64,000 nucleotides of DNA from Cytophagales bacterium (lineage in GTDB: Bacteria > Bacteroidota > Bacteroidia > Cytophagales > Thermoflexibacteraceae). A program made the translations under genes and the position numbers. The notes below the pieces were generated by a model. The model ran no database searches. It had not been told where the DNA came from and saw only the letters and a program-made list of their open reading frames with translations. The stretch covers positions 1 through 64,000 of the forward strand of contig JAAFKA010000018.1 in the NCBI GenBank assembly GCA_013299115.1. Direction: 5' to 3'. Shown piece by piece: positions 3,672 to 46,017 of this stretch; position 1 is the first letter of the stretch; every line of letters starts with the position of its first letter.

Positions 3672-5855
3672 TTACTCATACAAAACAACAAACTGTTCCC
3701 CACTTTTTTCGTCTGCTATTGTCATTTTGCTATTTTTTTGGATAAACTTTTGCAATTCTGGTCGTATCATAGCCTGTTTGGAAAGTACCAAAAAACCAAG
3801 TTGGTAGTGCAGAATACAGTCCACTTGGCTCTGCCCTATGCTTACGAATTGCTGGTTGCGTTTTTGCTTTGCCACAAATTGATAAAATTCACTGTTAGCT
3901 AAACTACGTGATTCAAATAATTGATGTATAGGTTGTGGACTTGTTGGTATGTCAAAAATTTCTATATTAATCACCGTATAAAATTGTGGTAGAACTGCTA
4001 AGTAGGTAGCTGGCACATTGTATCTGCTTCCTTTTGAATATAAATTGTGTGGATAAAACTCTTTGCCATATAAAAAAGCCCCAAATTGTTGTCTTTGTGT
4101 GGGTGGTGCAGGCAGTTGGCTTATTTTTTCTAAATAGGTGGTGCTATATAATTCTTCTTCTTTAATTTGACTGTATTTTACCAAAATAGAAAAATAAAAT
4201 TGGTAAACTACTAACAATCCAAAAATAAAAGTAAGACTTCTGGTAAATTTTTTTTGCAAAAAACCAACTAAGAAAAAATGTGCTAAGGCAAGGTTTAAAA
4301 AAGGCACTAAGACATTTGTGAGGAGTTGATGAGAATCAGGGTGAAGTTGCAAGAGCCACATAGCAGCAGTTCCCAATAAAGTTATACAAAATAGAATAGT
4401 TAAAAAGGGGCTAAAATTTAGTTGCCACCAGTCCCTGTGAGGTTGTAAACTATACTCTCCAAGTTTAAAAAACTTGTAAAGCATAGAGAAGTTGGTAAGT
4501 ATAATGTTTTCTCCTCTCCTCTGCATTTGCAACAGTACAGCCAACAACACAAATGGCAAATAAAGTAAGGCTATTTTGCCCAAATAGAGTCCAAAAACTA
4601 TAAATATTCCTTTTCCTAAAAACCACAAGGCTTGCCCCCACGAAAATTGCCGAAAAGCATAGACAGGCAATACTTCATTGAAAGAAAAAATAGCAGTTTG
4701 CTGTATTCCCAAAATCCAATAAAAAATGACTATTGCAATTATTAATAAAAACATTGTGATAGCAAATGGTAGGAAAATCTTTACTTTTCGCCTACAATAC
4801 CCTTTGTCTATGATGTGCCAAAACATATAGGCTACTCCTATACCTAACACACCGACCAAGGTAGTAATGGAAATTAACGGAATTGCGAACAGAGCCAAAA
4901 ATGCTATATAATATTTTCTTTGTTTCCACAATAAAAATGTAGCTATCAAAAAAGGTTCTACCAAGCCGAAGGTAAGCAAGGTATTGTTGTGCAGGTATTC
5001 TGTCCCTTTCAGAAAAGGAACTACTTGATAAGCAGGAAAATAACAACCACCAACTAAGAGTAAAGTCAAACAAAACAAACCTCTTGCCCAAAGAGTCGGC
5101 ACAACGCCACAAGGGTTTAAAACACTTGTGGCGTTAAAGCTGAAACTTGCTAAATTTTTGAAACTTAGCAAGTTGGTTGTTCTATAATTCCTAACTTGTG
5201 CATATTCACAAACAGCCATTGCCCCACACCAAATAGTGAGATAAAACAAGGGATAGGTTACTAACCAATAACTTGTAAGTGGCTGAAAACCAAATAGTTT
5301 TGAAAAAAAAGCAGCCAACCAAAATTCGTAAAAGTGATAAGGTGAACAACCATGAAATTGAGCTTCGAAGTAATTAGCAGAAAGACAATGGTAGTTTTCT
5401 TGCCCTGTCAAAAGTAGCATTTCTACATAACGACTATAAGCAGCCAAATCTTTGGATGGTAGCCAATAAGCAAAATTTACGTCTTCACCCCAACGAAAAA
5501 CCATAGCGGCATTGGCAAGCCAAAACAAAAAAATGACGAAAACAAGAAACAATACGTTTGTTAAGGTCTGTGACCATTTCCAATGTATAGGAGCTAATAT
5601 ATTGGCAATGGTCGCAGACCTTGACAATCGTATATGGGCTACGTTGGCAATGGTCGCAGACCTTGACAATCGTATAGCCGATTTCTTTTTATTTTTTTTC
5701 ACTACTTGATTGCCAACCCAAAGCAAGAGTAAAAGCAAATTCAGGCTTAATACGGTCTTGCCTTGTGTTTGCCACAAAGCAAAGGCAGTAGCACTAAACA
5801 AAGAGCCTAACCAAAGAAGAAAAAAGAGATGGGTAAAAAAACGAGGAAGAAACAT
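3672..5855 (-). CDS. Large polytopic membrane protein with GT-C-like topology
   Basis: 727 residues, with roughly a dozen hydrophobic segments followed by a soluble C-terminal domain of about 150 residues. No family motif is certain. The arrangement and the aromatic-rich loop containing PYHFYEFWLAAFF recall GT-C membrane glycosyltransferases, but this is inference. The ATG at 5855 lies one base after the TGA of the upstream sulfatase-like gene (TGA-T-ATG), which suggests coupled translation; upstream in-frame ATGs at 5876 and 5891 would give a 20-35 nt overlap instead. Residues near 57-90 are encoded by three copies of an inserted palindromic repeat, producing the repeated peptide IRLSRSATIAN twice. 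Homologues probably lack that part. Confidence 0.7.
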   Translation of the reverse strand: MFLPRFFTHLFFLLWLGSLFSATAFALWQTQGKTVLSLNLLLLLLWVGNQVVKKNKKKSAIRLSRSATIANVAHIRLSRSATIANILAPIHWKWSQTLTNVLFLVFVIFLFWLANAAMVFRWGEDVNFAYWLPSKDLAAYSRYVEMLLLTGQENYHCLSANYFEAQFHGCSPYHFYEFWLAAFFSKLFGFQPLTSYWLVTYPLFYLTIWCGAMAVCEYAQVRNYRTTNLLSFKNLASFSFNATSVLNPCGVVPTLWARGLFCLTLLLVGGCYFPAYQVVPFLKGTEYLHNNTLLTFGLVEPFLIATFLLWKQRKYYIAFLALFAIPLISITTLVGVLGIGVAYMFWHIIDKGYCRRKVKIFLPFAITMFLLIIAIVIFYWILGIQQTAIFSFNEVLPVYAFRQFSWGQALWFLGKGIFIVFGLYLGKIALLYLPFVLLAVLLQMQRRGENIILTNFSMLYKFFKLGEYSLQPHRDWWQLNFSPFLTILFCITLLGTAAMWLLQLHPDSHQLLTNVLVPFLNLALAHFFLVGFLQKKFTRSLTFIFGLLVVYQFYFSILVKYSQIKEEELYSTTYLEKISQLPAPPTQRQQFGAFLYGKEFYPHNLYSKGSRYNVPATYLAVLPQFYTVINIEIFDIPTSPQPIHQLFESRSLANSEFYQFVAKQKRNQQFVSIGQSQVDCILHYQLGFLVLSKQAMIRPELQKFIQKNSKMTIADEKSGEQFVVLYE
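5558..5669. repeat. Three REP-like R1 palindromes inside a coding region
   Basis: Copies at 5558-5583 (inverted, more degenerate), 5602-5627 and 5644-5669. The last two share TTGGCAATGGTCGCAGACC followed by TTGACAATCGTATA and are spaced 42 nt apart, exactly 14 codons. All three keep the frame of the membrane-protein gene open. The same family occurs at 279-305 and 19977-20013. Confidence 0.85.
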
Positions 5856-5856
5856 A

Positions 5857-7353
5857 TCACTTATAAGGAATATCATCAGGCAAAACAACAATAGTATCTG
5901 GTAAATAACTAATTTTTTTGTCTAAGGCGTTGTTTATCACTGCCTTAAACAAATTGACCGAAGACAAACTATCGTGCAAATTTTCATATTTTTGATTTGG
6001 AAAATAAAATAATGTGGTTGTGGAGTAACTCTCCTTGAGTCTTTCTTTATCTTTCCAAAGCCTTGCCCCATGGTCACCTGTGATGAGTACAATAGCAGGA
6101 CGGTTGCTATGTTTTTCAATAGAACTTATTAAATCTAATAAGACAGTGTTGAGATATTTTATTTGGTCTAAATAAAGTACTTGATACTGTTCTATTGTAT
6201 TGTCTTTGTAACATTCCGTTGTTAAACCGCCATTAGCTGTAAATATAAAAGGGTAATGTGATATGAAAAGATGTAAATAAATCAATTTTGGTTTAGCTGT
6301 TGGTATGCTAATCTGTTCTTTAAACTTGTTTAAGACTCTAAACGACATATTTTTATGCATTTCGATAGAAACCATTTTTTCGCCTTTATGAAATAGAGAA
6401 CTGAGTGCAAATTTCAAAAAAGTTTTGTCTAAATAATGAAGATACGAATGTTCAAAAGCTATATCAAACTTCAAAGTCCAAGTGTTGCTATATAAATTAT
6501 CTGTTTTTCTATTAAACACAAAAGGTGAGATAGCTGTTGTCTCATAGCCATTTTGTTCTAAATAATTTCCAAACGCATTGTGATTGATTGTTTGATTACA
6601 AAATTCCAAATCCTTTTCTTCAAAATATTCAGGCAAATACTGCCCGTTGAGCAAAGCAGCCAACGTCCGTTTTGTATAAAAATAATTTGATTTAGCATTT
6701 TTAACCACATAATAATCATGTTTTTGCACAGAGTCAAGAAAGGGCTGGTTATCATAGCCCCAATACTTTTTTAAATTGTTGCTATTGGTGTAACCATCTG
6801 TTAAAATAAAATAAATATTGGGTAACGAATCTGTTACGACTGTCTGGCTTTTGTTAGGTAATATTGAATTGCCAATTTTGGTAAGTCTATCAGCATGATA
6901 ACTATGCTGAATAATTGCAAGAATTTCTATCAGGCAAAAGCCAAATAAAACACAATTCAGATATAAATTTAGCGTAAAAAGCTTTTTTCTATAGGTGTTG
7001 AAAATCAAAATAGAGAATAACACTGCAAAAATAAGTATAAAATACACTATGCGGGCGTGGGCTAACCAAGAGGGTATGATTTCAACTACTGTTGCTTGTA
7101 GATTATCTCCAAAAAATATGAACCCAAATAAAAAGGTAAGCCACAAACCCAACGAATATTTATGTGTGGCGGGGGAAAAATATAAAAATAGTAGAATAGG
7201 GCATATAAAAGTCAGGGCAATGAGCAAAGAACTCAAAAAGTAGCTTGGAATAGCCACAAAATTTAACTTCTGCTCTGTCAAAACAAAAAGGAGGACAACA
7301 AAATAAGGGTGTAAAATATATTTTTCTCGCAATTTTGCTATCAATACATGCAT
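5857..7353 (-). CDS. Membrane-anchored sulfatase/phosphatase-fold protein
   Basis: 498 residues. About five N-terminal membrane helices (to about residue 150) are followed by an extracytoplasmic domain of the alkaline phosphatase/sulfatase superfamily. The metal-site signatures are visible: IYFILTDGYTN, with the first metal Asp and a Thr in the nucleophile region, and IVLITGDHGARLWKD (GDHG) near residue 430. This layout resembles LtaS/EptA-type phosphoglycerol or phosphoethanolamine transferases, but the substrate is unknown. The gene is followed without gap by the polytopic membrane protein, so the two probably act together in modifying a surface polymer or lipid. Confidence 0.75.
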   Translation of the reverse strand: MHVLIAKLREKYILHPYFVVLLFVLTEQKLNFVAIPSYFLSSLLIALTFICPILLFLYFSPATHKYSLGLWLTFLFGFIFFGDNLQATVVEIIPSWLAHARIVYFILIFAVLFSILIFNTYRKKLFTLNLYLNCVLFGFCLIEILAIIQHSYHADRLTKIGNSILPNKSQTVVTDSLPNIYFILTDGYTNSNNLKKYWGYDNQPFLDSVQKHDYYVVKNAKSNYFYTKRTLAALLNGQYLPEYFEEKDLEFCNQTINHNAFGNYLEQNGYETTAISPFVFNRKTDNLYSNTWTLKFDIAFEHSYLHYLDKTFLKFALSSLFHKGEKMVSIEMHKNMSFRVLNKFKEQISIPTAKPKLIYLHLFISHYPFIFTANGGLTTECYKDNTIEQYQVLYLDQIKYLNTVLLDLISSIEKHSNRPAIVLITGDHGARLWKDKERLKESYSTTTLFYFPNQKYENLHDSLSSVNLFKAVINNALDKKISYLPDTIVVLPDDIPYK

Positions 7354-7650: not shown

Positions 7651-8265
7651 CTATTGTAAGGTTTCTTTTTCTTTGCTCAACTCAAAAATACAAACCTCCA
7701 ACTTTACATCTTGCCATACTTTACCACAATCTACCAATGAATAAAGAGTAGCTAAGGTAAATTCTCTAATTCGTTCATAATTAGAGGCGGCGGATTACCC
7801 ATCACCACATCAAAGCCCACAAAATCTCCTTCCTCGTTTAAAACTGCAGGAAACTCAAGCCGCCATTCAAAGGCATTTTCAAAAATTCGGTTTGCCTTCA
7901 TTTCCTCTATTGCTGCCACTGCCTCCTCGTCTATATCTACACCAAAAATATGACGAACTAAAATTGCTTTTCTTTCTACCAAAGTCAAAAGTTCATTTCC
8001 TTTGTGTTGTTGATAAACTTCCAATAAAAACCTATATATTGCTACCAAAAAGCAACCTCCTCCGCAAGCTGGGTCTATAATCGTAAGTTGTTGAATTTCC
8101 TCCCAAGTTTTGCCTTCCATTGCTTTTTTCAACGTAGTTGCTACCATGTACTTCACCACGTAATCAGGTGTATAAAAAGCACCCAACTGTTTGCGATAGT
8201 GTGGGTTTGAAGCCAACACCTGCTCATACAACCCAATTGCATTGTTCAGGCTTATTTTGTTCCAT
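7651..8265 (-). pseudogene. Remnant of a second Eco57I/PglX-type DNA methyltransferase
   Basis: The frame reads from about NKISLNNAIGLYEQVLASN through GAFYTPDYVVKYMV to methylase motif I (DPACGGGCFLV), GVDIDEEAV and FVGFDVVMGNPP, then goes out of frame and stops at 7752. In the next frame the segment 7651-7790 continues as ERIREFTLATLYSLVDCGKV, then WQDVKLEVCIFELSK, which looks like a C-terminal piece of the same family. So the gene lacks its N terminus, the region after NPPY and its C terminus. FEWRLEFPAVLNEEGDFVGFD closely matches the intact RM gene directly upstream (FEWRFEFPEVLDDEGDFVGFD), so it is a decayed paralogue. The longest open part (7752-8231) would start at a TTG. Confidence 0.75.
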
Positions 8266-11200
8266 TCTCCACTATTTTGATTTCTTCGGCTGTCAAATCA
8301 TACAGTTTGTAAACGAGGTGGTCTATTTCGGTTTCTAAATCTAAGGTGTTGATTTGTTTAGTTTTATTCGCTAAAATTTGTTCTACTAACCGAATAAAAG
8401 GTTTTTGTTTTTGTTTGTCTATTTTTGGAAAAGGTATTTTACTCAAATAAATGTCGTCCATAACTCTTGATGTTTCGGTTGTATCACTAAAAACAGTTTT
8501 ATTGAAATAAAAAGAAACTAATTTTGAATTAACAAGAGCTAATGTAAAACGTAAATCTACTTTTTCCACAACTAAATTGATTAACTTTTCAGTAGTCAAA
8601 ATATGTTTAGGGCAAATGGTAGCTTGCAATCTTGCACCACGCAAAACTTTTATTATTACCCTGTCTTGCGACAATTTACCAATTTTTTCAGTTGGTTGCT
8701 TAGGTAAAAAAGACAAATCTATATTTCTTACCAACTCAATAGCATACCGAGAAACATCTGGTACTTTGTTGATATACAGCGTAGTACCTTTGTCTAAATG
8801 CAATGCTTTATAGTCATCAGGAATATACAAACCTCTAAATACTTGTCTTTCAAAATCTTTTAGGAAAGTTTTTTTACGAATTTTATCAAAAATATTTTTG
8901 ATAACAGGTGAAACGGCAGCAATAGTTAAAATTTCACTTTCTACAAAAATACTTTGTGCTACCTCTCCTAAATCTTTTAGTTTTTTCTTTTCTGCATATC
9001 TTTTTAAGGGTATAAAATGATGAAGGTTTACATTGTGATTGCTTGGCATTTGCCCATGTTGCATCACATAAATTACAGTTTCTAAATCAACTTCTGCAAA
9101 AGAAATTCCTGTATCAACCAAATGATAAATAACATTAGCCAACAATAATTTACGAGAATGTAGCCACGCATTGGCAAATAAAATAGACTTTGGTAAGATA
9201 GCCGAACAAAAACTATCTACTGTTGAAATCTTTTTTGACAAAACCATAAAGGCTTCGCTACTATCTGTAAAAATTTCAAAACCTTGTGTAGAGGCAACTT
9301 TATAGTTAAATTTTACACCATACGGAGGATTTCCCACCACCACATCAAAACCCACAAAATCACCTTCGTCATCTAAAACTTCGGGGAACTCAAACCGCCA
9401 TTCAAAGGCTTTGCGATAAATTTCGGTTTTTGCCTCCCATTTTTCTTTGGCTGTTTCAAACTCTGTTTGCAATTTTTCCAATACTTCGGAACTTTGGTGC
9501 AGCGAAAGTTGGGCTGTTACCCATTGGTTTTCCAATTCTCTATACGCCTGATAATCAGCATCTTTTGGATTAAACATTTTAAGAAATGTTTGTCTGTATG
9601 TGTCCAACAGAGCTACAATTTTGCGTTTGGCTGCCTTGTCCGTTACACCTTTATACAAACCGACTTGCTTTTTATAGTCGGGCATCAACCGCCGAATGGT
9701 TTGGCGTTGGGCATTGGTAAATTGGTTGAGGCTGTCGTTTAGTTGCAATTTGGAGATTAAACTGTTGCCCACCTTGATATTGATGTCAATATTGGGTAAA
9801 ACTTCAAGTCTAAGTCCAAGCCCCCCACCCCCCAAAGGGGGAGTTTTTGACGTATTTACGTCAGTTCCCCCTTCGGGGGTTAGGGGGCTTGTTTTATAGT
9901 ACGCATTTTTCAGCAACTCAATCCACAACCTTAGCCGACAAATTTTGACCGAATTGGGGTTGATGTCCACCCCAAACAAGCAATTTTCTATCACGGTTTG
10001 CTTTTCGTGAAAAATAGCTTCTTGTATGCGTTGTTTTTCTGCATGGCGAGGATTGTACTTAAAATATTCGTTTTTTTCTAAATCTATTACCATCAACTCA
10101 TCATTTTCCACCACCGCCTTGTAATCCCTTAATTTCTTGCCTTTGCGGTCAAGCAAAATGTCCAATTCACTTTTTATGGCTATCATTTCATTGAGAGCAG
10201 ACACCAAAAAATGCCCTGAACCTACTGCGGGGTCGCAAATTTTTACGCTATTCACAATGTCGTTTGCCTCTTTATTGTCTTTAATTTGGTTGTAAATTTC
10301 GGTCAAGTTGCTGCAATTCCATTGTTTGACTTCGTTAAATTTGGCTACCACCGCCCTGTGTATGGTTTCCCTGCACATATACATGGTGATGAACCCTGGC
10401 GTGAAAAAAGAACCTTCTTGGTAGCCATTGATTTTTTCAAACACCAAGCCCAGCACCGAAGCCGTAATGAGGGGTTTGTTACTTTCCTGAATGTCGCCTT
10501 TGCCCTCTGCCCCAAAATCGTAGGCATCGAGAAAAGCAAACAAATAATCTAAGGTCTTTAAATTTTGGGTTTGCCTATTGCCTTTGCGGTCTTTTAGCAC
10601 CGTTTGTGGATAAAGAGGTAAAATTTTATCTGTATTCAGGTTGCCAATCAAAACAGTTTGGTGTTCCAAATCCGTTATCTCAAACAAAGACGAATTGAGA
10701 TAAGGGATTTTTTCATACAAGACTTGCGTATCGGGGTGGCGGTTTTCGGGTTCTTTTGCCAGCACCTCAAAAAACAGCACGTCTAAACCACTTGCACACC
10801 TAAATTTTTCTGCCGATAAAAAACTGTAAGTTCTGTCGCCTTTATGATAACTTTCTAATTGAGCTTCCAATAATTTGAGGAACAAAATCCGATTTATCCA
10901 CGTAATGGTCAATTCCAAAGCCACACCAAAAAGTTGTTCCTCACGAGTAGCACCAAAATCACTAAGATTGGCTATTCGGTCTAATTTGTTCAGACTTTCT
11001 ATTCTCAAAATAGTTTCCTCCAAAATACTTCCGTTGTGCCTTTCGTGTTCAGGATTTCGCTGTATCAATTTTTTGCCACTTGCCTGCACCTCTTTCAAAC
11101 CCATAAGGTGCAGCAACTCAAAATAAAAACCACTATCTAAGGTATTGCTGTCATTGACAAAAGGCAATTTTAGCAAATATTCAGGCGTAAACACTCGGTA

Positions 11201-11878
11201 CAAAGGCAGGAGTTTTTTGTCCTCTTCGGGGTTATTTTGGCGTAGCAAACCCTCAAAATCTTTGATACGGAAGTGAGTAAATTCCAATTCCTCTTGCAAA
11301 TTGGCAACAAAAGGCTCGGCTATTTGGCGGTAGAAAAAATCTGTTCGGTTGTCTGCCAACCTGCCCTCCGAAAAATCCTGAAATTGCTGCACCAAATTTC
11401 GGTTTTGGGCAAAAATTCTATCAATGGTTTGGGCATCAAAAATAAACCAATCATAGACATTAGTAATGATTAAGTACTTGATTTCCAAGTTTTTATTTGC
11501 AATTCTCTCCCGCAAATAATAGAGCAACAATTCGTGAAAAGCCTTGCAATTCAGGTTTTCAGGCGTGGGCATTTCGGCAGTATTGGTAGGCTTTTTTGCC
11601 TCAATGAGTACGCCCACAGGAGATTTTGCGGCTTCTCCGTTGTGGATTACCAAATCATTACGCCCCTTGGTGTTGATATAATGCTTGTTTTGAAAGTAAG
11701 TTGTTTGCAAAAACTTACTCACCAAATTTTTGTGAAATTCCTCTGTTTCGTTTTCGTTAATCGTATCTAATAGCTGCACAGCCTGCGTTTTGAACAAATC
11801 CATTTGGATACGCAGCACAGTCAGTCGGCGATAAACACCACTAAGGGCAAAGGCAAGGGTTTGGGGCAGAAATGGCAT
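8252..11878 (-). CDS. Single-chain restriction-modification enzyme (type IIG/Eco57I-like)
   Basis: 1208 residues combining nuclease and adenine methylase in one chain. A PD-(D/E)XK-type site is near the N terminus (NDLVIHNGE, then VGVLIEAKKP; Asp75, Glu93, Lys95). N6-adenine methylase motif I is DPAVGSGHFLVSAL (about 549-562), motif II region GVDINPNSVKICRLRLW, and motif IV NPPYG (about 849-853). The last 300 residues are a TaqI-like target recognition region. Between motifs II and IV, residues 664-687 are encoded by an inserted palindrome. The ATG at 11878 was chosen because the upstream start is TTG and a -7 box lies 25 nt upstream; an ATG at 11803 is also possible. A broken paralogue follows at once. 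Confidence 0.85.
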   Translation of the reverse strand: MPFLPQTLAFALSGVYRRLTVLRIQMDLFKTQAVQLLDTINENETEEFHKNLVSKFLQTTYFQNKHYINTKGRNDLVIHNGEAAKSPVGVLIEAKKPTNTAEMPTPENLNCKAFHELLLYYLRERIANKNLEIKYLIITNVYDWFIFDAQTIDRIFAQNRNLVQQFQDFSEGRLADNRTDFFYRQIAEPFVANLQEELEFTHFRIKDFEGLLRQNNPEEDKKLLPLYRVFTPEYLLKLPFVNDSNTLDSGFYFELLHLMGLKEVQASGKKLIQRNPEHERHNGSILEETILRIESLNKLDRIANLSDFGATREEQLFGVALELTITWINRILFLKLLEAQLESYHKGDRTYSFLSAEKFRCASGLDVLFFEVLAKEPENRHPDTQVLYEKIPYLNSSLFEITDLEHQTVLIGNLNTDKILPLYPQTVLKDRKGNRQTQNLKTLDYLFAFLDAYDFGAEGKGDIQESNKPLITASVLGLVFEKINGYQEGSFFTPGFITMYMCRETIHRAVVAKFNEVKQWNCSNLTEIYNQIKDNKEANDIVNSVKICDPAVGSGHFLVSALNEMIAIKSELDILLDRKGKKLRDYKAVVENDELMVIDLEKNEYFKYNPRHAEKQRIQEAIFHEKQTVIENCLFGVDINPNSVKICRLRLWIELLKNAYYKTSPLTPEGGTDVNTSKTPPLGGGGLGLRLEVLPNIDINIKVGNSLISKLQLNDSLNQFTNAQRQTIRRLMPDYKKQVGLYKGVTDKAAKRKIVALLDTYRQTFLKMFNPKDADYQAYRELENQWVTAQLSLHQSSEVLEKLQTEFETAKEKWEAKTEIYRKAFEWRFEFPEVLDDEGDFVGFDVVVGNPPYGVKFNYKVASTQGFEIFTDSSEAFMVLSKKISTVDSFCSAILPKSILFANAWLHSRKLLLANVIYHLVDTGISFAEVDLETVIYVMQHGQMPSNHNVNLHHFIPLKRYAEKKKLKDLGEVAQSIFVESEILTIAAVSPVIKNIFDKIRKKTFLKDFERQVFRGLYIPDDYKALHLDKGTTLYINKVPDVSRYAIELVRNIDLSFLPKQPTEKIGKLSQDRVIIKVLRGARLQATICPKHILTTEKLINLVVEKVDLRFTLALVNSKLVSFYFNKTVFSDTTETSRVMDDIYLSKIPFPKIDKQKQKPFIRLVEQILANKTKQINTLDLETEIDHLVYKLYDLTAEEIKIVENGTK
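9818..9890. repeat. In-frame G/C-run palindrome inside the RM gene
   Basis: A 73 nt near-palindrome. Outer arms AAGCCCCC and GGGGGCTT enclose further C-run/G-run pairs, with TGACGT-ATTT-ACGTCA at the centre. Its base composition is strikingly richer in G and C than the gene around it. It encodes a Pro/Gly/Thr-rich peptide (SPLTPEGGTDVN, then TSKTPPLGGGG) in the surface loop before LPNIDINIKVGNSL. Confidence 0.85.
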
Positions 11879-11902
11879 GGCAATAAATTGCAAGTAAAGT
11901 TA

Positions 11903-19976: not shown

Positions 19977-20013
19977 GTACGATTGGCAAGGTCTGCAACC
20001 ATTGCCAACGTAC
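19977..20013. repeat. REP-like palindrome R1, copy E (complete 37 nt form)
   Basis: The most complete copy. GTACG at the left and CGTAC at the right flank ATTGGCAAGGTCTGCAACC and ATTGCCAA; the two halves can fold into one long hairpin. It lies 8 nt from the stop codon of the hydrolase gene. Confidence 0.8.
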
Positions 20014-23511: not shown

Positions 23512-23524
23512 AGAAAAAATATGT

Positions 23525-23557
23525 AGCAATAACATTTCTTTGAGAAATGTTATTGCT
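23525..23557. repeat. Palindrome R4 (AACATTTCT / AGAAATGTT)
   Basis: AGCAATAACATTTCT and AGAAATGTTATTGCT pair perfectly over 15 bp around TTG. Relatives are at 33583-33615, 45965-45995 and 58208-58265. Confidence 0.8.
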
Positions 23558-23579
23558 AAGAAGTTGTATGAATGTAGTA

Positions 23580-33551: not shown

Positions 33552-33655
33552 TAAATTTGGTAGTGCCACAAATGTAATGCTCAGCACTAACATTTCTTTA
33601 AGAAATGTTAGTGCTAAGGTAGTTACGGCATAACTTGTATGGCACTACCCTAAAT
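33552..33655. repeat. MITE-like R4 element
   Basis: Outer arms AAATTTGGTAGTGCCA and TGGCACTACCCTAAATTT enclose the perfect 15 bp stem AGCACTAACATTTCT/AGAAATGTTAGTGCT (33583-33615). The order TTGGTAGTGCC...TGTAATGCTCAG...CTAACATTTCTTT recurs inverted at 58208-58265. Confidence 0.8.
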
Positions 33656-45957: not shown

Positions 45958-45964
45958 TATAAAA

Positions 45965-45995
45965 AAACTAACATTTCTCAAAGAAATGTTAGTTT
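45965..45995. terminator. Bidirectional terminator, R4-type hairpin
   Basis: AAACTAACATTTCT and AGAAATGTTAGTTT form a perfect 14 bp stem around CAA, with an A-run on the left and a T-run on the right. It sits between the convergent Fur-family and lipoprotein genes. The core is the same as the R4 palindromes at 23525 and 33583. Confidence 0.8.
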
Positions 45996-46017
45996 TCTAT
46001 TTTGACTTGAGCAGCAA

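Follow-up and report, generated by a model that had tools for sequence, protein, structure and literature searches.

A REP-like palindrome that has most probably been copied in frame into a membrane-protein gene of a Cytophagales bacterium

Three palindromes lie within a gene for a polytopic membrane protein, and the locus raises the question of whether a dispersed repeat has become protein sequence there, or whether the coding sequence came first. The gene (3672..5891, minus strand; an ORF of 739 codons, whose true start may be an ATG 11 codons further in) is located in a stretch of 64,000 nucleotides from a Cytophagales bacterium, which we refer to as the window. All three copies of the palindrome, which we call REP-A, are read within the 739-codon frame. 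Copy 1 (5640..5674, minus strand) has no substitutions relative to a 35-nt consensus and codes for (I)RLSRSATIANV, copy 2 (5598..5632, minus strand) has 2 substitutions, and copy 3 (5553..5587, plus strand) is inverted and degenerate, with 5 substitutions, and is read by the gene as HWKWSQTLTNV. The initial annotation had described the direct copies as 26 identical bases (5602-5627 and 5644-5669) encoding IRLSRSATIAN twice in frame, and the degenerate inverted copy as 5558-5583. All of these were found, the true unit being longer (35 nt). Both direct copies encode the peptide and, as they are spaced by 42 nt, or 14 codons, they share the same reading frame. Together, copies 2 and 3 make up an inverted pair of 80 nt (5553-5632), and the RNA of 5550-5680 is predicted to fold at -54.1 kcal/mol (z -8.6), with none of 200 shuffles equally good.

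A Pfam search with the protein returned no family at 0.001, its homologue family gave scattered single Pfam matches only (E 0.016 or worse), and tblastn against plasmids found no match. The top fold matches were oligosaccharyltransferases, and these were weak (E 4.3e-3, TM about 0.3); judging from the predicted fold, the product is perhaps a GT-C glycosyltransferase.

We defined the REP-A unit from an alignment of 116 copies, which gave a 35-nt consensus, TACGaTTGTCAAGGTCTgCGACCATTGCCAACGTA. Conservation begins at TACG and stops at CGTA with sharp edges; beyond the unit no position is well conserved, the left flank being T-rich and the right flank A-rich. That the palindrome is a repeat, as the initial annotation had it, is borne out by its number. 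In the genome (5,499,092 bases, 5.5 Mb, in 74 contigs) the 26-mer, with up to 3 mismatches allowed, was found 146 times and its reversed control 0 times, and the exact 19-nt core GGTCNNNGACCNTTGNCAA was found 125 times, again with 0 matches to the reversed pattern. The core is present in 7 of 59 genomes, this one counted: besides the 125 copies here, there are 59 in the sole genome of the same genus, 2-7 in four genomes of the same family and 1 elsewhere in the order. Single matches in other genomes carry little meaning, because the reversed control there reached 2. An intergenic copy lies in the window at 19978..20012 (plus strand, 2 substitutions), in agreement with one of two intergenic positions reported earlier (19977). 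The other, at 279, turned out to be a mere degenerate look-alike with 4 substitutions and 1 insertion relative to the 26-mer, and the 35-mer is absent from that region even at 10 substitutions.

As expected of REP or BIME sequences, REP-A is a multi-copy palindrome within the range of ~20-40 bp, mainly extragenic and often in closely spaced inverted pairs: of 77 groups, 18 are inverted pairs in the order '-+' and 49 are single copies. It lacks the GTAG or CGTC tag and has no conserved tetranucleotide alongside its TACG/CGTA ends, which sets it apart from the GTAG and CGTC superfamilies. Tandem arrays of REP-A with periods of 60 and 94 nt were seen at C38:26339-26769, C38:30-236 and C53:18119-18238. 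The same-genus genome (G001) contains thirteen REP-A pairs of identical spacing (cores 33 nt apart, plus then minus) on contigs C3, C85, C99, C111, C175, C180, C209, C228, C229, C247 and C310, some of them near contig ends; the pairs may bound a larger repeated element.

We analysed the DNA surrounding 117 of the 146 copies, which make up 74 clusters; the sample is slightly uneven in that a copy on contig C18 entered through the search for another palindrome, family 2. A copy was taken as deep in an ORF if the ORF was 200 aa or longer and 60 codons or more separated the copy from either end, a rule under which the counts, for REP-A and for family 4 below alike, include frames running off the stretch examined. 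Only 5 of the 117 copies, or 3 of the 74 clusters, are deep by this rule: the three copies of the window gene, one in a 527-aa membrane-protein-like frame on C18, and one on C24, which is ambiguous as an intragenic case because a signal-peptide-like stretch comes after the repeats. In the C18 frame a family-2 palindrome is closely followed by REP-A (one mismatch), in frame, ahead of a hydrophobic stretch. By a looser count, 23 of 100 listed copies fall within any ORF of at least 100 aa. These could not all be accepted as truly intragenic: of eight places inspected, several proved to be N-terminal extensions ahead of a signal peptide or of a start further in, or short frames spanning tandem arrays.

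We compared the window protein with 45 non-redundant homologues, of which the closest, that of the same-genus genome, shares 34% identity with it. The segment T46-Y152 comprises 106 residues in the window protein and 61-90 in the homologues, as would be seen if residues of about 57-90 were an insertion, the possibility raised in the initial annotation. Two other segments are also expanded: residues 219-285 (66 residues versus 31-40) and 436-522 (86 versus 50-76, the truncated homologue L130 excluded). Distant homologues carrying the same peptide, which the initial annotation had regarded as the sign that the coding sequence came first, were sought, and RLSRSATIAN at up to 3 substitutions was found in 0 of 45. 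As the peptide is absent from all 45 and the loop is longest in the window protein, the repeat came second; the earlier proposal that a dispersed repeat became coding sequence with the frame intact is thus upheld. The DNA of the same-genus homologue that matches the loop has no inverted repeat of at least 7 pairs, although its own genome holds the 59 REP-A cores; its loop, of 90 residues, is among the longest of the homologues. Ten columns are invariant across 12 family members, the window protein included, and all are kept.

In a structure model of the window protein (12 sequences, mean pLDDT 67.4, pTM 0.74) pLDDT falls below 50 at residues 70-93, 95-100, 240-266 and 457-493, which are the three expansions, and in five short stretches elsewhere. 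Low values at the expansions are expected anyway, because the homologues have no columns there. The model agrees with the earlier placement of the REP-A copies after the second predicted helix (residues 70-93 and 95-100).

The second expansion (approximately aa 231-264) contains two palindromes, both members of further dispersed families with more copies in the genome: family 2, AACTTGCTAAGTTT...AAATTTAGCAAGTT, at 5144..5174, and family 3, AACGCCACAAG...CTTGTGGCGTT, at 5103..5135. The third (aa ~463-494; 4410..4505, minus strand), also longer than in homologues, has a decayed palindrome near 4455-4481, of which 24 nt match palindromes in two other loci (L160 and L081) at 92%; the match is weak (E 0.016), and on sequence grounds a palindromic origin of this expansion is suggestive only. 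The gene has therefore taken up, in frame, palindromes of three, perhaps four, families. Family 2 was also seen in ORFs on two further contigs (L158 and L159; C60:7151 and C4:3493), where both its frame and the peptide around it are the same. Another palindrome family, TAACATTTCTNNNAGAAATGTTA, has three copies in the window, at 23524-23558, 33583-33615 and 45964-45996, outside the listed ORFs.

We searched for an enzyme that could mobilize REP-A. No strict REP-A core was found in stretches of ~8 kb around each of the three Y1_Tnp genes of the genome, and look-alikes at 3 mismatches were seen, for example at L108:1258-1276, about 2.5 kb from a RAYT-like gene. This gene (L108:3711-4399), the sole RAYT-like gene of the genome, scores 54.1 bits with NF047646, under the curated 80, and has another palindrome, ACCTATCGGGTGGCTTNGAGCCACCCGATAGGT, a further repeat of the genome, on both sides. 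The link between REP-A and these transposase genes was thus not substantiated, and, since the palindrome of the RAYT-like gene is not REP-A, the enzyme copying REP-A cannot be pinned to it. Elsewhere, right behind an IS200-like transposase gene, we noted short tandem repeats (L106:4413-4745) that encode FFDLISDSRAL several times in one frame.

Another palindrome of this genome, family 4, is mostly found inside ORFs. In the window it forms a 73-nt inverted pair (9818..9890, minus strand), in frame in the ORF 8252-11893, a restriction-modification gene (DUF7149, DUF7814, Eco57I), and is read as SPLTPEGGTDVNTSKTPPLGGGGL. With up to 3 mismatches allowed, the genome has 77 copies of the unit AGCCCCCTAACCCCCNAAGGGGGAACT, versus 0 for the control, and 62 of the 77 copies (50 of 62 clusters) are deep in ORFs, 36 in number and mechanically defined (L262-L301, L190). 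When 27 of the host ORFs were scanned, 21 matched a Pfam family at 1e-8 or better and 6 matched none. Hosts include SMC, acetyl-CoA synthetase, two AcrB-type pumps, two methylmalonyl-CoA mutases, an ABC transporter and restriction-modification enzymes; LeuRS, ValRS, pyruvate carboxylase and MetH were recognized as hosts in separate analyses. Residues 294-321 of LeuRS correspond to 4 residues in the solved homologue 2v0c, and residues 498-546 of ValRS to 15 residues in 1gax. The insertion in pyruvate carboxylase is less clear-cut, because the phmmer alignment partly runs through the element, and a further extra segment of LeuRS relative to 2v0c (145-204) is not obviously palindromic. The site in the restriction-modification gene of the window is likewise occupied in a paralogue in this genome (L288), holds a different palindrome-like peptide in genome G025 (L327) and is empty in L316.

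The deep copies of family 4 are read in few phases. Of the 62, 41 use the frame fwd0 (SPLTPEGGT) and 15 use rev2 (VPPSGVRG), followed by fwd2 (4) and rev0 (2); forward and reverse units within one pair are not independent in these counts. All 76 distinct copies have fwd0, rev2, fwd1 and rev1 open within the 27-mer, compared with 22 copies for fwd2 and 20 for rev0. Thus 56 of the 62 deep copies use two of the four always-open frames, and fwd1 and rev1, open yet used by 0 of 62, argue against stop codons alone as the explanation of frame use. In the 72-nt family-4 composite of the window a stop interrupts fwd1 while rev1 stays open, and stops outside the 27-mer may explain part of the bias. Either targeting in frame or selection acting on the peptide could account for the phase preference.

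This genome has a single match to the DUF559 endonuclease domain (L295/L196), situated in frame within MetH and bordered on either side by family-4 peptides. Across the 59 genomes we found 36 DUF559 matches in 22 genomes, this one included. The domain and family 4 are not simply coupled, as family 4 is present in 25 copies in one genome that lacks DUF559 (G041), and DUF559 without family 4 is found in many genomes. By a mechanical rule (at least 120 residues on one side), 16 of the 30 matches examined with DNA lie in a longer frame; weak among these 16 are L324 (masked bases downstream), L321 (147 residues upstream) and L304 (at the very C-terminus). The ten hosts scanned were LeuRS in four cases (L305, L306, L307 and L310), MutS in the same-genus genome (L311), MetH (L325), GATase_5 (PurL-like) and three restriction-modification enzymes. 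Palindromes of the form CCCC...GGGG occur within 350 nt of DUF559 on both sides in 13 of the 30 matches, and 20 have them on one side or both; counted by side, they are present on 33 of 60, as compared with 7 of 116 control 350-nt windows of the same loci.

Orthologous sites were found in different states. LeuRS site 1 is empty in G015, contains family 4 here, short extra segments in G046 and G031, and DUF559 in G035 and G009; in G009 the frame continues into LeuRS downstream, the stretch examined ending 58 residues before the domain. LeuRS site 2 is empty in G035, G009 and G015, holds palindromes only here, and DUF559 in G046 and G031. MetH site B is empty in G035, contains family 4 here and DUF559 in G046. 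All three sites are hence empty in some genomes and filled in others, as is expected of a homing element, and these states, as read from the sequences, suggest traces of an in-frame mobile element with long and short forms.

Parts of this picture have counterparts in the literature. In PMC3733652, the GTAG- and CGTC-tagged intragenic REPs are described as short palindromes, mostly intergenic and often in inverted pairs, that in some species lie in frame in genes, often as dimers or groups coding for 20 to 30 amino acids, and RAYT transposases are proposed for REP/BIME elements. REP-A resembles that description in being short, mostly intergenic, arranged in inverted pairs and present as an in-frame group. 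It differs in carrying neither tag and in having no RAYT of its own among the three Y1_Tnp genes checked, and the window gene differs from the cases given there in holding palindromes of three, perhaps four, families. The palindromic elements of Rickettsia (RPE), as outlined in PMC10969869 and PMC3733652, are palindromic repeats lying in frame in many unrelated genes, with a length of about 150 bp (PMC10969869). By that description family 4 is RPE-like, with 62 of 77 copies in frame in 36 ORFs, and REP-A is not, with 3 of 74 clusters deep in ORFs; RPEs are further set apart by their phylum and their ~150 bp, compared with 35 nt for REP-A and 73 nt for the family-4 pair. According to PMC6006769, palindromic structures flank a RAYT-type gene in the Bacteroidetes TnpA-REP subclass 2.6; L108:3711-4399, from the same phylum, is similar in this respect, its palindrome not being REP-A.

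PMC9403480 assigns a DUF559 gene to the EDxHD family of homing endonucleases. The DUF559 elements described here resemble these endonucleases in occupying, in frame, one and the same position within conserved genes and in having empty and occupied forms of that site. They differ in that Pfam scans found no splicing domain between their ends, in their flanking palindromes and in the existence of palindrome-only forms at the same sites. In the literature DUF559 also appears beside inteins in Thermosynechococcus and as a mutation hotspot in Legionella. Among the titles and abstract openings brought up by searches of the open-licence PMC literature, none names palindromes-in-coding-sequence elements of Cytophagales, which is weak evidence of absence. 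The in-frame REP-A copies are a fresh case of a known phenomenon, and the stacking of families is unusual.

Taken together, REP-A, a 35-nt REP-like and mostly extragenic palindrome, has most probably been copied into the membrane-protein gene at the linker that joins helices 2 and 3, and the open frame now passes through it. The converse, that the peptide is an ancient feature of the protein family and was the source of the dispersed palindromes, would fit a segment that is in frame in an intact gene; it is extremely improbable given that 0 of 45 homologues have the peptide, all with a shorter loop, and that the palindrome has 146 copies and is common to the genus and family. A dead or dispensable gene, its frame open by chance, might also collect palindromes, and the presence of palindromes in all three expansions of one gene (in one of them weakly), together with a nearest homologue as distant as 34% identity, is compatible with such decay. 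We consider this quite unlikely, as the frame is kept through all three expansions over 739 codons and so are the ten invariant columns of 12 family members. It is likewise unlikely, if somewhat less so, that the inverted pair acts in the mRNA or DNA of the gene, as a hairpin that slows ribosomes, attenuates or stabilizes, with the peptide a by-product retained on that account: the stability of the fold, unmatched by the shuffles, speaks for it, but any inverted pair folds so, and copy 3 has accumulated 5 substitutions relative to the consensus.

A different mover is also conceivable, namely a DUF559-like endonuclease system instead of a RAYT-like transposase, since the gene holds palindromes of several families and DUF559 domains, which often have palindromes beside them, occur in frame within other proteins. 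For REP-A this is very unlikely, given that the only DUF559 of the genome is flanked by family 4 and not by REP-A, and that REP-A is deep in ORFs in 3 of 74 clusters versus 50 of 62 for family 4. Under the preferred reading, in which REP-A was copied into the linker, the palindrome would have spread in the Cytophagales lineage singly and in small groups, mainly outside genes, presumably copied by single-strand transposition of the REP/RAYT type. Its arrival between helices 2 and 3 would have produced a BIME-like cluster of two direct copies and one inverted copy: an inverted pair was probably inserted, one 42-nt unit was then duplicated locally, and the inverted copy decayed. The insertion would have kept the frame, the linker tolerating about 30 extra residues, and the segment is presumably translated, its peptide serving as neutral filler. 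Several genes of this genome, the membrane-protein gene among them, have gained coding sequence from palindromes of unrelated families.

A wider reading, to which we give somewhat less than an even chance, is that Cytophagales carry palindrome-ended mobile elements that insert into conserved genes in frame, with a preference for phase, and are translated; the full form would contain DUF559 between its palindromes, and the palindrome-only forms would stay as permanent linkers. These shorter forms may be relics of the full form or independent arrivals. Intragenic REPs and RPEs are in print (PMC3733652 and PMC10969869) and are known from few species. Here one genome provides a built-in comparison between a palindrome rarely found deep in ORFs (REP-A, 3 of 74 clusters) and one found mostly there (family 4, 50 of 62), to which the membrane-protein gene adds a place where several families have gathered in frame. 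The phases of family 4 and the three-state sites of LeuRS and MetH make both the path from selfish DNA to protein and the enzyme responsible open to test. If the wider reading is true, other palindrome families of the genome, REP-A for instance, are likewise turned into coding sequence, and selfish DNA would steadily supply protein linkers in these bacteria.
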